Shown in pieces: positions 352 to 30,348 of a stretch of 31,816 nucleotides of DNA (position 1 is the stretch's first letter; every line of letters begins with the position of its first letter). A model generated the notes under the pieces. The model worked only from the letters and a program-made list of their open reading frames with translations, was not told the origin of the DNA and did no database searches. The translations under genes were made by a program, and so were the position numbers. The stretch is from a virus. The stretch spans positions 1-31,816 of IMG/VR virus record IMGVR_UViG_3300042914_001393. One strand, 5' to 3'.

Positions 352-3300
352 CTAAAATTTTATATGAAAATATACAAATTCAGTCGGTTGCATATTATTA
401 TGCGGTTGCCCACCACCTACATTATTTGTGTTATATTGATTAGCTCCTGTATCTAAACCCTGCCTATTGCTAAACACATCGTTAGCGTCATAATCGTTAA
501 ATACATAACCTTGTACATAGTGATTATGACTTGGCATTTGATTAATAGTCAATGTATGTGTTTCAGCACCTGTAAATTTACCTATACCGTGGCTTGTACT
601 TGCATTTGCTAATACTTTGCCTTGATAATCAGGCACATTGAATGTAGTAGCACTTGATACATTTCCAATTGTCAAAAACATAGTATGTGTACCTGATTGT
701 GTACCGCTTGTTGCTATATATGTACTAGTAATTAAATTGGCATAACTAGTTGCTAAATTAAATGTATTAGCTCCTGTTACATTTATCCAATATGTGGTAT
801 TAGCAGATAACCCTGTAGGTAATGCACCTGTTGTTGTAAAGTATATTTTTTGTCCTGTAGTTAGCCCATGGTTAGTTAAGGTGATAACAGCAGGAGTGTT
901 TATTGAAATAGTACAAATACCTTTCTCTGTATTTAATAAATTAAATAATGCAGAATACTCACTACGATTGTAACTATTACCATTACATAATAAATAACCA
1001 CCTATATTTGGTGATATATTTTGTATAATAGTGCCAGTTGGTACATCATTAGCGGTTGTAGGGGTGGGAATATTTAATTGTCTAGCAATAACATAGCTAT
1101 TAACCGCCATAGGTTGCATATTTCCGTTACCAGTTTCCCGAATACTAAAGTTAGTTGGTGATGTTATCGTGATGGTATGATATAGCACACTGTTTGGCGT
1201 ATATGTATTTCCACTATCTGGAGGACATATTGCTGACTCTTGACCTACAAATGCACCAGATGTTTCATTATACCAACGAATAGTACCACCACCGCCTCCA
1301 GCAGTTCCTTGCCACACCGCAGTTAGTTCGTATGTACCAGCAGAAACAAGTCTTAAAATCCCGGTACTAGAAAGTGTAATATTACTTCCTAAAAAATTTA
1401 ATATCTGACTGAATTGCATTCTACGATTTGCATCCCAAGTATTTACCCCAACAGCAGGTTTAACATAAAGATATTGACTTACAACACTACTACCCCCCCC
1501 AGTAGGTGTACTCCACCCACCTTTTGCATCGAGGTACTTATTAGCCACCCCATCACCTGAAGCAGGTGCAGGGACTAAACCTTTCGTACCACCAGAACCA
1601 CTATCGCCTACAAAGTTATTTAAAATAGCAGTTAAATCATTTACATTCTTAACCCCAGTACCGCCTGATGCGATTGGTAATGCAGTTGTCAATTCTATGC
1701 TATCAGAATAACCAGTTCTTGTCAACACAGTACCAAGCAGTGTACTATTAGTCTTATCAAACAATACATTATCAAGAGAATAAAAAGAACCTGTATTGGC
1801 TGTTATTTTAGCCAAATTATCAACAGTCAAACTTACCACGTGCGTACCTGATTGAGTGCCACTAGTTGCTACAAAAATATTTGTAATGTAATTAGCATAA
1901 GTAGTTGATATGTTAAATGTACTAGTATTAATTATTGTTACCCAATATGTAGTGGTAGCAGTTATCCCAGTTGGCAATGCACCTGTAGTTGTAAAATATA
2001 TCTTTTGTCCATTACTTAAATTGTGATTAGCAATTGTAATAACAGCAGGCGTTGCAATGCTTATTGTAGCATTTCCAATCGAGGCAGTTGGTAATATCAT
2101 TGTCGACTTAGAAATATAACAAAAAGCACCAGATGCTATAGTAACCGCTGATGTTACTCTAGATAATGTATATACAGGTGTATCATTAATTCCCATTAAC
2201 CCCGCAAGTATATTAATTGGTAATGAATTTGTATTATTTGCAAAGGTAACTTGAGCCAATGCATTATTAATAGTTACACTTCCGATTGTGCTTCTTTCAT
2301 TAAATAATACTGAACCAGAACCAGTAATTGATACTGTGCCAGCAAAAGTTGAACCTTGGCTATCGGATGAACTAACTTGTAAATATCCACTACCAGTTTT
2401 TGATAATGATGTTGTACTTGAATTATAAAGATAAGCATTTCCGGCACCTGCATGTATAAACGTATTTATATTAAGCCCAATAACCCTAATACTAGAAGCA
2501 GGATTATTTGCTGTAATTGTGCCAGTAAAATTAACTATACCAGATTGTTCTCCGTTTGGTGCTACAATACTAATATTTTGTGCAGTAATAATTGTATTCT
2601 CAGTATAAGTGCCAGGATAAACTACAATTTGAATACCTACATTACCAGCCAATGTTACCGCCCTACCTAAAGTTAATACTGGAGTACTTGGTGTTTTGCC
2701 ATCATTCGTATCAGAACCATTTGGCGATACATAATAAGTATTATTATAGGTAAAAGGTAAATCATTAACATTAGCAATTCCCAGAGTATTCGCTGAAGTT
2801 CTTTTTACCAGTCCCGTTGTTGACAATCCTGTAATTTGGTCTTGTGTAACATTTCCGCCCAATGAGGTATTATTATTTGCAATTGTAATGCTCGAATTAG
2901 CAAGTTTAGAATTTGTAACTACATTGTTACCAATTGTTAAAGCAAGCGAACCCTCAGCATTTGTTACATCACCTGTAAAAGCAGGTACAGCGGACGTCGG
3001 TAATGTAGTCGTCGGTGTAACTTGTGTACCACTAGCATTAAATACAGATAATTGATTAGCAGTAGGCGTCGCACTTGATGAAGTCACAGGATTTGTTAAA
3101 GCATTTTGTTTATTATTAAATGTTGTAAAATCAGTATTTGACAAATAACCTGTTTGCGTTGGGCTTGATTGATTGATAACATTGTTATATTGTGTTTGTG
3201 TCAAATGATAATTTTGGTCGTTGCCATTGCCACCTTGAATACCCGCTAAATTATTATGATACGTAATTAGTGGTGTGTGGGCATGTGAATAATATTGTGC

Positions 3301-23513: not shown

Positions 23514-24764
23514 TTAACTCCAAAAATTAGGATTATTATATAATGCATTCAATGGCTTTTTAGCTTCGCTAATCTGTTTATATAAAGCATATCGCAATGC
23601 ATCAATTAAATGATTGTTAGCGTCTATTATATCAGTTGTAATTTGACTTGTGTTCTTATCAATTTTGTATTTGTAGTTATATAACTCATATATCATATTC
23701 TTACAATTCGGATTAACTATAATTTGTTTGCCTTTGAGATACTCTATCCCAGCTTCTATACTTCCTTTACTTTTTGTAGCCCCTTCACAAGTTAGCCCAT
23801 CGTGATTAAGTTGTGCTATACTATCAGGTCTCGCACTATCACAGTAAAATCGTTTATTAATAGCCTCTGGCATCTTTTGTTTAATCAATTCAGCATATTT
23901 AGTTATTAATAATTTATGTTCGTAAATTTCTCTATTAATATAAATTATATCATTATCTAATAGAAACACTTCAATAATTGCGGTAGGATCTGTACTAAAG
24001 CCAAAATCAAGCCCGTACAACGGATATACTTTGTTTTGTTTGTATAAAAAATCACGTGTGTTGTGAATAATGTCTACATTATCAATCTTAAAATGTCCTT
24101 TAAATACTACGTCCTCAGTCATGCTAATTGGCTTACCTAAATATATATGCTCATACTTTGCGTAGTCCTTTTGTTTCATGTACTCTATTTCAGCCAATGC
24201 GGTGTCAGATAAAAAAGGGTTGTCAAGATAATTTATTTCAATGCAAAGGCTGTCAGGAGGTGTATTAATAACAAATCTTTGATATGTGTCTGATTGTTCT
24301 TCTACGGGATTAAATGCTATTATTATTTGACTACCTGCTTTACGAACAGTCGGTATTAATACATCCCAATCGTGCGCTTTTATAGTATCAGCCTCTTCTA
24401 CAAAGCATATATCAATGTCAGCCGTAGACTTTATCGTGTTTATATCTCTAGCTAAACCTTTAAATATAAACTTAGTGTTACAATTGTAAGATTTTTTACC
24501 TACAATTGTGTCGTGTTTGATTTCGTAAAAATCAGTTAAATTATATTGATATATCATATTTTTAAGTTCAGAATAAGTGCTGTCTTTAATACTTGATTGA
24601 TATTCACGTGTTATTAATATCGTTTGGTGAGATAACATTCCTTGTATTAAACAATATTCACAAATTGCATGAGTCTTAGTGCCACCCCTTCCCCCATATA
24701 ATATAATGTATCTATATTTGCCGCTAAACATAGGTTTGAGTTTTTTAGGAATATTAAAATTCAT
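23514..24764 (-). CDS. terL: Terminase large subunit
   Basis: A 416-residue packaging motor and nuclease of the Terminase_3 (PBSX XtmB) type. Walker A is GGRGGTKT at residues 24-31, Walker B is IDICFVEEAD at 117-126 (Glu123/124), and a coupling motif AFNP is at 150-153. The nuclease half has acidic residues D253 (GLDFGFSTDP), D309 (CDSARPDS) and D389 (HLIDALRY). The start overlaps the small subunit stop as ATGA. It drives DNA into the prohead through the portal. Confidence 0.95.
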   Translation of the reverse strand: MNFNIPKKLKPMFSGKYRYIILYGGRGGTKTHAICEYCLIQGMLSHQTILITREYQSSIKDSTYSELKNMIYQYNLTDFYEIKHDTIVGKKSYNCNTKFIFKGLARDINTIKSTADIDICFVEEADTIKAHDWDVLIPTVRKAGSQIIIAFNPVEEQSDTYQRFVINTPPDSLCIEINYLDNPFLSDTALAEIEYMKQKDYAKYEHIYLGKPISMTEDVVFKGHFKIDNVDIIHNTRDFLYKQNKVYPLYGLDFGFSTDPTAIIEVFLLDNDIIYINREIYEHKLLITKYAELIKQKMPEAINKRFYCDSARPDSIAQLNHDGLTCEGATKSKGSIEAGIEYLKGKQIIVNPNCKNMIYELYNYKYKIDKNTSQITTDIIDANNHLIDALRYALYKQISEAKKPLNALYNNPNFWS

Positions 24765-25309
24765 GATGCTACTATATTAATAACAGGGGCTTGTTCTTCT
24801 TGCTTGTTATTAATTTGTATATTCGTCTGAATTTGGGCAGGTTCTTTATAAAAAGACGCTATTTTGTCTATCGAAGCACCCAAACGTTGCAGTATCTTGC
24901 TTGCGTCATCGTAATTAATTATATTATTCTCTAAATCAAACACTAATTTATTAATAATGAATTTATTAACGTACAGTGCAGTGTTTTGCACGTCTTGCAA
25001 ATCATTAATAATTTGCAACGCTTTACTAAGTTTATGTTTGACAACATCAGGACTCATTGTCTCAAGAGCAGGCACACTATCGTGAAGTCTGTCAATCTCA
25101 ATAAAATTATTAACAGTTGCTTGAGTGATTTTTTTAATTTTACTCAATTTTTTCCAACCAAATTTTTTAGCTCTATTATGAATAGATTGTCTTGTCATGT
25201 CGTATTTTAGTTCCATTTCTTTTAAAGTCATGTCATCATTTTCATAATCGTGTCTTAAATCCTCGTTTGCAAATTCTGCTAAAGTTTTATTTACAGTTGC
25301 TACTTTCAT
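24761..25309 (-). CDS. terS: Terminase small subunit
   Basis: A 182-residue DNA-recognition subunit. A helix-turn-helix is seen at residues 28-51 (TLKEMELKYDMTRQSIHNRA), followed by helical oligomerisation segments. The start ATG 25309 has no convincing ribosome site: it is preceded by AATGTAAAC, a copy of the TGTAAA repeat that fills the adjacent control region, and one repeat lies inside the first codons. Small terminases bind repeated sites near their own gene in many phages, which makes the array a candidate pac region. That link is inferred. Confidence 0.85.
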   Translation of the reverse strand: MKVATVNKTLAEFANEDLRHDYENDDMTLKEMELKYDMTRQSIHNRAKKFGWKKLSKIKKITQATVNNFIEIDRLHDSVPALETMSPDVVKHKLSKALQIINDLQDVQNTALYVNKFIINKLVFDLENNIINYDDASKILQRLGASIDKIASFYKEPAQIQTNIQINNKQEEQAPVINIVAS

Positions 25310-25641
25310 GTTTACATTCTTTACATTTTAAAATCGTTTAAGTTATTGATATATATATATTATTATATAATAAAGTTTACATTTTGTCAAATATTTAAGT
25401 TTGTAAAGCTTAAAAATGTAAAAATGTAAAGCAAAATGTAAAAATGTAAAGATATTTTTTATTAATAATATTTACAAAAAAAAGATAATCGTTATATGGC
25501 TTGCGTTTTGAAGTGTAAAGATGTAAAGTTATGTAAAATTATGTAAAGCAAATCAAAATAAAAAAATTACAATATACTACACAAAATACTCAAGTAAAAT
25601 CAATAATTTACAATAAATATACAATTATTTTACATTTTACA
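25290..25641. repeat. Array of TGTAAA/TTTACA repeats in divergent control region
   Basis: Seventeen exact copies. TTTACA begins at 25290, 25311, 25320, 25376, 25471, 25607, 25629 and 25636; TGTAAA begins at 25402, 25417, 25425, 25437, 25445, 25514, 25522, 25532 and 25542. Spacing is often 8, 10 or 12 bases. A 20-base tandem repeat (25413-25432 and 25433-25452) differs only at the last base. At this base composition about one copy would be expected by chance. The stretch 25310-25738 has no gene; it contains this array and two promoters. Confidence 0.8.
25362..25390 (-). promoter_or_regulatory. Late promoter for terminase and packaging genes
   Basis: Minus-strand TTGACA (25390-25385) and TATAAT (25367-25362) are separated by 17 bases, a consensus sigma70 promoter. 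A repeat copy (25376-25383) lies in the spacer, so a protein binding the array would block this promoter. The transcript would start about 45 bases before the small terminase ATG. Confidence 0.7.
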
Positions 25642-25651
25642 GCAAAAATAG

Positions 25652-25680
25652 TTGACATATGTTAGCAATTGTGATATAAT
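25652..25680 (+). promoter_or_regulatory. Early promoter 1
   Basis: TTGACA (25652-25657) and TATAAT (25675-25680) have a 17-base spacer and an extended -10 TGA. A block of about 38 bases around it (AAAAATAGTTGACATATG onward, then TTGTGATATAATA) recurs at 29579-29617 with a one-base insertion. Array repeats stand just upstream at 25629 and 25636. Confidence 0.78.
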
Positions 25681-25738
25681 ATTGTTATGAAGTTAAAAAA
25701 GTTTCTTAATAAATAACAATTTTTTAAAGGTGATTAAA

Positions 25739-26038
25739 ATGGATAAAATAATAAAAATAGGCAAATATATAGCAGCTCGCGAAGATTCGTTTAGAATGCA
25801 TTATACTAAAAAAGATGTTGAAAACTTAATCGATGAAATTTGGTTAAAATTTAATAATTCACAACTTGATGAAATTGGTGAAACTTTTTTTGTTGAAGAA
25901 GTTAGTTATCAAAACGGTAATAAAAAAATTAGAAAATTTTATTTTGAATTAATTGAAATTGAATATATAACTGATAATGAAACAGGTGAACAAGATGTTG
26001 AAACAGCTTGTTATAAAATTAAATATTTATGTCCTTAA
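25739..26038 (+). CDS. Small early protein, hypothetical
   Basis: A 99-residue product from ATG 25739. A GTG nine bases earlier lies inside the ribosome site AAAGGTGAT and is not a start. The protein (MDKIIKIGKYIAAREDSFRM at the N-terminus) has about 20 acidic and 14 basic residues. It shares a loose pattern I..F..SQ.D..G.TF with the next gene, suggesting distant paralogy. It is the first gene behind early promoter 1. No family is recognised; early position fits host-takeover or anti-defence roles, without direct evidence. Confidence 0.8.
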   Translation: MDKIIKIGKYIAAREDSFRMHYTKKDVENLIDEIWLKFNNSQLDEIGETFFVEEVSYQNGNKKIRKFYFELIEIEYITDNETGEQDVETACYKIKYLCP

Positions 26039-26066
26039 CAAATAACAATTTTTTAAGGTGATAAAA

Positions 26067-26432
26067 ATGATAAAAAATATAGAAAAATTAGTTGATGATT
26101 GTAATTTGTTACTAAAAAAGCATAATCAAAGAGGTGGTTATTATTTAGAAGAAGAAGACGATTTAGAATATTGGTATACTCAAATTTGCAGTGCTTTTTT
26201 AGATAGTCAACAAGATAAAAAATTAGGTGCTACGTTTAGTTATAATTTTGAAGTTCAAGTTGAAGACAATGTTATTTACACAAGTGTTTGTTCATATAAT
26301 TTTAAGTTTAGAATATCAAAAATTATACAAGAAATTTATAATGATGTGTATTATGATGATGACGGTAATGAAGTTGAAAGTGAGGGAATTGATGTTTCAA
26401 TAGAAGACTTTGAGTATATGGGATTAATTTAA
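26067..26432 (+). CDS. Small acidic early protein, hypothetical
   Basis: A 121-residue strongly acidic protein (about 26 Asp/Glu against 10 Lys/Arg) from ATG 26067, with AAGGTGAT placed just upstream. Acidic runs occur at residues 28-34 (EEEDDLE) and 96-105 (DDDGNEVESE). There is a pattern shared with the preceding gene (I..AF..SQ.D..G.TF). The composition is reminiscent of DNA-mimic inhibitors, but no fold or family is recognised. It is the second gene of the early unit, with TAACAATTTT before its ribosome site. Confidence 0.8.
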   Translation: MIKNIEKLVDDCNLLLKKHNQRGGYYLEEEDDLEYWYTQICSAFLDSQQDKKLGATFSYNFEVQVEDNVIYTSVCSYNFKFRISKIIQEIYNDVYYDDDGNEVESEGIDVSIEDFEYMGLI

Positions 26433-26456: not shown

Positions 26457-26484
26457 TTATAACAATTTTAAAAGGTGATTAATT

Positions 26485-26658
26485 ATGAATTTACTACAAT
26501 TATATTTACTTAACTATAAATTTAAGTGTGATGATTTTAGTCTTATTAATCAAAATTATCTAATTAATTCAATCAATCACGAAATACAAAATACAGGTAA
26601 AAAAATTAAATGCGGGACGCAGGCTGATAACACAATTTTATTTAATTTTGGAGAATAA
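26485..26658 (+). CDS. 57-residue early protein, hypothetical
   Basis: This short frame starts at ATG 26485 behind the repeated cassette (TAACAATTTTAAAAGGTGAT), the same signal as its neighbours, which is the main reason to call it a gene. The product starts MNLLQLYLLNYKFKCDDFSL and ends with ADNTILFNFGE. It has two Cys and no recognisable motif. Its stop is three bases before the next ATG, so the pair is likely translated together. Confidence 0.65.
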   Translation: MNLLQLYLLNYKFKCDDFSLINQNYLINSINHEIQNTGKKIKCGTQADNTILFNFGE

Positions 26659-27995: not shown

Positions 27996-28904
27996 TTACC
28001 AATCTTCTACTACAATCGGTCCAGTTCTTTCTACATTCTTAAAAGTAGAATGTGTAGTTTTATTTTCTTTGCTTTCTTTGTTAATAAATCCTTTATTTTC
28101 ATTGCTACATCTTTCAAACTTTTCATCAAATTTATTGTTTAAAATGTTACTTAAGTCAATATAATTATTTTCTATGTGCCATTTACTAGATAATATATAA
28201 CTCATGACTTTTTTAATATCGTCATTTGTGTATTCTTTTAAGATTTTATTAATTACAGTAACATGTTTCTTATATATTTTTGTATTTTTACTAATTTTTT
28301 TATAGCTTGGTTGTATATTCAATCTTTTCGTATAGTAATACTCTATAATTTGATCCGCTTCGTTATTAACACACAAACTCTCATCATTGTCAAATGATGA
28401 ATAATCAAATGCGTCAGCGTTTGATTTGCTCTTTTCTTTTTTATTATTTTTTTCTTTATCTCTATTCTCTATACTCTTATCTCTATTCTCTAATCTCTGG
28501 TGTACATTTGTACGTACATTTGTACACCCTTCTTGCTTTATCTTTTCTCTGTAATCCCTTATCCTGTCTGCTTCCGTGCTACTTTTCCCAATAAAATTTT
28601 GTATGTCAAGCATGTAAATAGCACCACTGTCTAATACATCAATCAATCCCATATCTTGAAATATTTTCAATGCCTTTTCAACTACCCCAACTGGTTGTCT
28701 AACCAACTGTGCCAACATAATCGGATTATACGGCATCCTATCTTTATACATTAATTTACCTTCGTTTTTAATTGATTTTAAGTATAATTTAAGTAAAATG
28801 TTAGAATAAATAATCCCATCTGGCATACTTTCTAATAAGATTAAGTCTTCAGTATCAAAGAAATTATCTTTTAATTTTAACCAATAATATTTTTTATTAT
28901 CCAT
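27996..28904 (-). CDS. Phage replisome organizer / DnaD-like initiator
   Basis: A 302-residue protein. ATG 28904 is chosen because AAAGGAG is 8 bases upstream; an ATG at 28925 would place that site inside the gene. The N-terminal 120 residues (KKYYWLKLKDNFFDTEDLIL, LKLYLKSIKNEGKLMY, then DRIRDYREK) match the phage replisome organizer N-terminal domain. A Lys/Asn/Glu-rich linker follows (residues 125-165), then a C-terminal domain with IIEYYYTKRLNIQP and NILNNKFDEKFE. It binds the origin and recruits the loader. This family is best known from Firmicutes phages. Confidence 0.88.
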   Translation of the reverse strand: MDNKKYYWLKLKDNFFDTEDLILLESMPDGIIYSNILLKLYLKSIKNEGKLMYKDRMPYNPIMLAQLVRQPVGVVEKALKIFQDMGLIDVLDSGAIYMLDIQNFIGKSSTEADRIRDYREKIKQEGCTNVRTNVHQRLENRDKSIENRDKEKNNKKEKSKSNADAFDYSSFDNDESLCVNNEADQIIEYYYTKRLNIQPSYKKISKNTKIYKKHVTVINKILKEYTNDDIKKVMSYILSSKWHIENNYIDLSNILNNKFDEKFERCSNENKGFINKESKENKTTHSTFKNVERTGPIVVEDW

Positions 28905-29504: not shown

Positions 29505-29586
29505 TTAATTTATAAAAAAATATTAAGTTATTACAGTAATTTATTAATTATTTAATAAAAAATATAACTTATTCTTACAAAAATAG

Positions 29587-29616
29587 TTGACATATGTTAG
29601 CAAGTTGTGATATAAT
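29587..29616 (+). promoter_or_regulatory. Early promoter 2
   Basis: TTGACA (29587-29592) and TATAAT (29611-29616) with an 18-base spacer and extended -10 TGA. The whole block is nearly identical to early promoter 1 (one inserted G in the spacer), so both units probably respond together. It leads into a 160-base untranslated leader. Confidence 0.78.
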
Positions 29617-29642
29617 ACAGTATAAAAGGTTAGAAATAACAA

Positions 29643-29744: not shown

Positions 29745-29781
29745 GCTTGTGTAATTTAACAATTTTAAAAGGTGATAAAAA

Positions 29782-29982
29782 ATGAGTTATATTCAAAGTT
29801 ATTCATATTTAAATACAAAATTTAAAGAACCTGACAATTTTGACCCGCCCGATGAAGACGAATTTACTGAAGAGCAATTAGCAATGATTGAAACATTAAA
29901 AGAAGAACGAGACGCATATGAAGATGTGTTACGAGAACAATATCAAGAATACATGGACGATTATTATAGTAATAATATTTAA
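29782..29982 (+). CDS. Very acidic 66-residue early protein
   Basis: A small product starting MSYIQSYSYLNTKF, with about 19 Asp/Glu against 5 Lys/Arg, giving a strongly negative charge. Residues 17-31 are Asp/Glu/Pro-rich and residues 30-60 look like one charged helix. The ribosome site is the repeated TAACAATTTTAAAAGGTGAT cassette. It is the first gene of early unit 2. Size and charge recall DNA-mimic anti-restriction proteins, but I recognise no family, so the role is unknown. Confidence 0.75.
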   Translation: MSYIQSYSYLNTKFKEPDNFDPPDEDEFTEEQLAMIETLKEERDAYEDVLREQYQEYMDDYYSNNI

Positions 29983-29987
29983 ATAAC

Positions 29988-30008
29988 AGGCTATATTTAA
30001 TATAGCCT
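29988..30008 (+). repeat. 21-base perfect hairpin between early genes
   Basis: AGGCTATATT, a central T, then AATATAGCCT, followed by TTT and the AAAGGTGAT ribosome site. It may be a weak terminator or a processing site, and makes expression of the following gene adjustable. Confidence 0.6.
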
Positions 30009-30024
30009 TTTAAAGGTGATTAAA

Positions 30025-30348
30025 ATGTATTATAAAGATAACACAATAATTAGTTGTGAAATAAAAAACAGTGATAAATTAATGGATTATGTAAAAAACG
30101 TGTGGGATTTTGATTATAAATTTTATTATAATTTATTGATTGATAAAATATTGATTAAATTAATAAATAAACAAGAATTGATACTTATTGAAAATGTGGA
30201 CAAAAATACTGCTGTGAAATTAAAATTTAATATAGAAGATGTGATTATTAATGATGTACACACAAATTATATATTAAATTGTGAGATAAAAAATAAAGTT
30301 GTGCATGATGATGATTTTTGGTCATTAGTGTATAAAGATTTAATTTAA
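30025..30348 (+). CDS. Early protein, hypothetical
   Basis: A 107-residue product from ATG 30025; a GTG at 30016 is part of the AAAGGTGAT ribosome site and is not used. The protein (MYYKDNTIISCEIKNSDKLM at the N-terminus) is Ile/Lys/Asn-rich with alternating strands and helices and two copies of CEIKN-type sequence near residues 10 and 90. No family is recognised. It is in early unit 2 between the acidic protein and the ERF gene. Confidence 0.75.
   Translation: MYYKDNTIISCEIKNSDKLMDYVKNVWDFDYKFYYNLLIDKILIKLINKQELILIENVDKNTAVKLKFNIEDVIINDVHTNYILNCEIKNKVVHDDDFWSLVYKDLI

Follow-up and report, generated by a model that had tools for sequence, protein, structure and literature searches.

What does a dense array of one six-base word do at the divergent junction of the late and early operons of a phage? 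This question was raised by the window, i.e., the whole virus contig analyzed here (31,816 nucleotides, 31.8 kb), which had no end repeats and may therefore represent an incomplete genome. Counting confirmed the preliminary description of 17 exact TGTAAA/TTTACA sites in about 350 bases in both orientations, 9 on the plus strand and 8 on the minus strand (Table 1). In dinucleotide-preserving shuffles of 25280-25660 (n = 5000), the comparison proposed in that description, the word occurred 1.6 times on average and 7 times at most. Across the whole window TGTAAA was observed 56 times against 60.5 expected, and its enrichment was therefore purely local to the array. Successive sites were spaced by 21, 9, 56, 26, 15, 8, 12, 8, 26, 43, 8, 10, 10, 65, 22, and 7 bases; the recurrence of 8- or 10-base spacing was reproduced (5/16 intervals), the tandem runs placed sites 7 to 12 bases apart, and the 20-base tandem repeat proved to be perfect. 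The TGTAAA core was constant with varying flanks, giving an array consensus of roughly AATGTAAAG. Helical phasing was weak when all sites were pooled (best period 9.6 bp, p = 0.03) and was not significant for each strand separately. The GC content was 17.6% in the array and 30.5% in the window.

Table 1. Coordinates of the array, its neighbors, and related features (window positions unless another contig is given).
Feature	Position	Strand	Remark
Full TGTAAA/TTTACA array	25290..25641	both	17 exact sites
Three sites (25290, 25311, 25320)	25290..25325	-	putative terS leader and 5' end
A/T-only run, 26 bp	25349..25374		between site groups; contains late -10
Late (terS) promoter	25362..25390	-	TTGACA-N17-TATAAT, 12/12 consensus
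Late-promoter spacer site	25376..25381	-	between -35 and -10
Five tandem sites (25402, 25417, 25425, 25437, 25445)	25402..25450	+	directly upstream of late -35
Tandem repeat, 20 bp	25413..25451	+	2.0 copies, 100% identical
Lone TGTAAA site	25471..25476	-	
Four tandem sites	25514..25547	+	spacings 8, 10, 10
Three sites	25607..25641	-	upstream of early promoter 1
Early promoter 1	25652..25680	+	TTGACA-N17-TATAAT, extended -10, 12/12 consensus
Putative terS	24761..25309	-	182 aa, N-terminal HTH; weak PHROG matches (TerS, DNA-binding families)
terL	23514..24764	-	Terminase_3 and Terminase_3C
Early-leader copies	25709-25742, 26037-26070, 26458-26487, about 29758-29784, 30008-30030		
Probable origin in replisome-organizer gene	28457-28525		GTACAAATGTAC repeats and AGAGAATAGAGATA repeats
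ACAAATGT word inside replisome-organizer gene	28503-28523		
Other-word arrays in L031	L031:41-240 and 607-636		

On the minus strand, the first gene of the late operon occupies the terS position and encodes an HTH protein; terL, which is clearly identifiable, comes next. The HTH protein was assigned as a putative TerS from weak matches and its position beside terL. Its AF2 model was weak (pLDDT 65, pTM 0.34), with an HTH and a long helix predicted; no significant match to its fold was found in the PDB, and no homologue was identified among isolate phages. The early operon ran on the plus strand from about 25.74 kb. At 27.1-28.9 kb the minus strand encoded a replisome organizer of the Phage_rep_org_N type together with a DnaC-like loader, after which the plus strand carried genes for RusA, an Erf-like annealing protein, and a YqaJ nuclease. 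A leader of the form ~AACAATTTTTTAAAGGTGATxAAAATG recurred before several early ORFs.

Both promoters flanking the array were perfect sigma-70-type promoters, and the sites lay on them as previously noted. One site was located in the late promoter spacer, where a bound protein could block RNA polymerase, and sites reached the start region of terS, with those at 25311 and 25320 just upstream of the putative ATG and that at 25290 inside the coding sequence. Early promoter 1 contained no TGTAAA itself; the nearest site of the group upstream of it ended 11 bases before its -35. The segment around this promoter (25643-25681) was 98% identical to 29578-29617, and this second copy was without an array.

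Among the explanations considered, we tentatively prefer, at somewhat short of even confidence, that the array serves as a multi-site operator where the late (terS-first) and early operons meet, holding or tuning late transcription. A TGTAAA-reading DNA-binding protein would occupy many short, mostly head-to-tail sites cooperatively, covering the -35, the -10, and the upstream flank of the perfect-consensus late promoter. Late transcription would thereby be kept off, or its level set, until the protein leaves these sites, either displaced or titrated away as phage DNA is replicated. We infer this binding, its repressing direction, and its timing from the anatomy of the locus: the operator reading is favored because the site density is far above that of the shuffles, and because a 12/12 late promoter carries a site in its spacer and five tandem sites directly before its -35. 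The array almost certainly provides docking sites for a DNA-binding protein, and this binder might be TerS, another phage protein encoded outside this fragment, or a host factor. The operator part of the preliminary description thus fits the late-promoter anatomy, but the window proteins that were scanned yielded no cognate repressor and no candidate besides TerS; the only DNA-binding proteins resembling a regulator or initiator among them were TerS and the replisome organizer. In addition, the array reaches far past what promoter control requires, which speaks against an operator.

Relatives were searched by TerS, TerL, and the early genes. Close relatives in viral contigs were limited to L007, L008, and L010 and the partial L009 and L011; none were found in genome contigs, and 25200-25760 had no DNA match among isolate phages. 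L007 was identical to the window across the overlap, and its contig begins inside the array. In L008 (TerL 86% and TerS about 39% identical), the 154 bp preceding terS contained six TGTAAM sites (p = 0.003 against shuffles, with the motif widened post hoc), and the late promoter, TTGACA-N17-TACAAT, has TGTAAA in the spacer; the operator reading is therefore also favored by this relative. No site was present in the 81 bp available upstream of terS in L010 (TerL 83%, TerS 31%), or in L021 (TerL 54%), whose late promoter has an inverted repeat, TTGATAACAA/TTGTTATCAA, instead. Conservation of the array among close relatives, proposed earlier as a check, was thus partial: it was seen in L008 but not in L021 or the short L010 segment. 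Distant TerL relatives in annotated phages had different terS surroundings and were uninformative for the array. In L031, a distant TerL relative, arrays of other words (TAACCA/TGGTTA and ACCAAACCGT) were located upstream of an HTH TerS. The contigs of two 55% TerL relatives from different samples (L019 and L020) start at an identical base inside terL.

The word was further sought in two IMG/VR pattern scans, and all counts and settings given here refer to the matches listed. Many matches proved to be repeats within coding sequence, confined to one strand of an ORF with a period of 9 or 18, and were excluded. Dense two-strand arrays recurred in unrelated phages in two settings, the rest having no clear neighbor. 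Some lay beside DUF3987/PrimPol, VapE, or primase/helicase genes (e.g., L086, L153, L117, L187, L366, L387, L388, and L400; L187, L387, and L388 were placed here by sequence likeness to scanned PrimPol proteins). Others lay upstream of terS (L129/L076/L335/L381, the HMO-2011-type L134/L361, L356, and L390, in which TerS was assigned by its position beside a clear TerL), at the early/late junction wherever the flanks were known, and spanned at least four TerS/TerL types unrelated to that of the window. The operator reading is favored as well because dense arrays precede terS in these four further unrelated types. TATGAA, used as a control with the same base composition, gave 3/120 dense two-strand arrays against 24/120 for TGTAAA, which supports the arrays being real; this comparison bears on the arrays, not on enrichment at terS. 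The arrays compared with that of the window (L129/L335/L381, L134/L361, L356, and L390, and the primase-linked L086, L153, L187, and L387) shared the core word, 7 to 16 sites in both orientations, and similar spacings; they differed in the predominance of TGTAAAC in many, against TGTAAAG in the window, and in their terminases and replication genes. Within the literature covered, a search for TGTAAAC repeats in phages yielded nothing relevant.

Spacer TGTAAA as a general trait of promoters near arrays was considered and set aside: it occurred in 3/47 consensus-like promoters near arrays and 2/164 far from them, which is not convincing. The promoter of L361, which has an unrelated TerS, reads TTGACAgatTGTAAACTagggtgTATAAT, compared with TTGACAaaaTGTAAACTttattaTATAAT in the window; this likeness may reflect the TGTNAACTAG motif of L361's own family. 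A repeated TGTNAACTAG motif was found upstream of terS, promoter spacers included, in the HMO-2011-type L421, L428, L361, and L134.

A packaging role, also suggested at the outset, is possible as the sole explanation but rather unlikely. TerS rings assembled on the array repeats, which cover the 5' end of terS and its promoter, would direct a nearby TerL cut, as in SPP1, and their occupancy may repress terS. The SPP1 pac region overlaps PL1/PL2, the ribosome-binding site, and the 5' end of gene 1, and contains three direct-repeat sets (PMC6316719, PMC4737164). The window array is placed in the same way, with repeat-bearing DNA across the late promoter, leader, ribosome-binding site, and 5' coding region of terS, and the predicted N-terminal HTH and long helix of TerS are consistent with such a role. 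It differs from SPP1 pac in having one six-base word 17 times in both orientations and a late promoter with consensus -35 and -10, whereas the PL1 -35 is atypical. In all the relatives in which terS is complete (L007, L008, and L010), a contig end falls 81-154 bp upstream of that gene; these could be physical ends, but are equally explained by poor assembly of a repeat region of 17.6% GC. The positional match to pac stands, but the word was not coupled to TerS type across phages. TerS as the reader, and with it the proposal that TerS represses its own promoter, is weakened because arrays precede at least four unrelated, non-homologous TerS/TerL types and because the L134/L361 array is missing in Pelagibacter phage HTVC115P, which shares 70% TerS identity with L134 and carries TGTTAACTAG motifs instead; the array thus varies within the HMO-2011 family. 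The DNA-binding domain of SF6 TerS showed little specificity for such repeats (PMC4737164), and the TerS assignment in the window is itself putative, both of which argue against this reading. The preferred operator array might possibly serve as a packaging region in addition, by analogy with SPP1.

An unlikely proposal of broader scope is that many unrelated phages carry dense arrays for one widely conserved TGTAAA-reading protein, either a host factor or a mobile phage regulator. Acting at the early/late terS junction in some of these phages and next to primase genes in others, it would couple late transcription to replication and packaging through a single DNA word. No DNA-binding gene was common to the window and the other array-bearing phages; only TerL and the Erf-like protein matched.

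We regard it as improbable that the array is a replication origin with TGTAAA iterons around an AT-rich unwinding element, even though most other dense arrays with an identifiable neighbor, among the matches listed, adjoined primase, PrimPol, VapE, or primase/helicase genes. Origins of PICIs consist of two sets of short iterons with an AT-rich stretch between them (PMC6092414). The site groups of the window similarly border the 26-bp A/T-only run, but several further groups exist and the run coincides with the consensus -10. Unlike PICI/SaPI origins, the array lies at the terS promoter and has no adjacent pri/rep gene: no PICI/SaPI-type primase or initiator gene adjoined it in the window, and the 31.8 kb yielded no primase/helicase gene. 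Small DnaA-domain-IV-like proteins adjoined TGTAAA arrays and PrimPol genes in two contigs (L153:481-849, L169:2863-3300) and are possible initiators of those origins.

The phage also has another probable origin. Over the N-terminal 120-150 residues, its replisome organizer was 59-68% identical to proteins from phages of Streptococcus, Lactococcus, and Enterococcus, and the organizer gene contains repeats, ACAAATGT followed by CACCAGAGA and TAGAG-like repeats, that are shared with these Firmicutes phages. Seven relatives compared had mid-gene ACAAATGT-like repeats (or GGACATTTGTC forms), then CACCAGAG and TAGAG-like motifs, or close variants. SPP1 has two origins, with oriL inside gene 38 (PMC6316719), and because of this analogy the main origin of the window phage most likely lies inside its replisome-organizer gene. 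The earlier suggestion of an iteron-type origin is not supported if the initiator of the phage itself is taken as its reader, because that initiator has a conserved in-gene origin with a different word, ACAAATGT, which is missing from the array; a second origin at the array, as the two origins of SPP1 might suggest, would require another initiator. The genome is a mosaic: its probable origin is conserved in phages of Streptococcus, Lactococcus, and Enterococcus, although it is mainly proteobacterial phages that provide the matches for its TerL and capsid.

Response regulators of the OmpR/PhoB type use direct-repeat boxes, for example the CpxR box GTAAA-N5-GTAAA. The TGTAAA words may resemble such boxes, and a chromosomal regulator of the host could read the tandem sites. 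A host factor is consistent with the recurrence of the word across unrelated phages that were not seen to share a DNA-binding gene, and with the tandem spacing of 8-12 bp common in TGTAAA arrays. We nevertheless consider it a doubtful explanation: the hosts are probably diverse (contigs with 28-54% GC), and an 8-bp spacing is short for OmpR/PhoB-type regulators. Neutral, functionless growth of a short AT-rich repeat in non-coding DNA is very improbable despite the perfect 20-bp tandem duplication and the incomplete conservation among relatives, because sites in both orientations, unrelated intervening sequence, and a constant core with varying flanks are unlike slippage, and the control word gave far fewer arrays.

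Little is understood of how phages silence a strong consensus late promoter, or of how a small terminase recognizes the DNA of its own phage. With a single word repeated over 350 bp at a terS promoter, the array, which we favor as an operator, is compact enough to be tested easily. Further, the recurrence of TGTAAA in phages of unrelated lineages points to a common, as yet undescribed binder, which could be found by pull-down from one laboratory phage.
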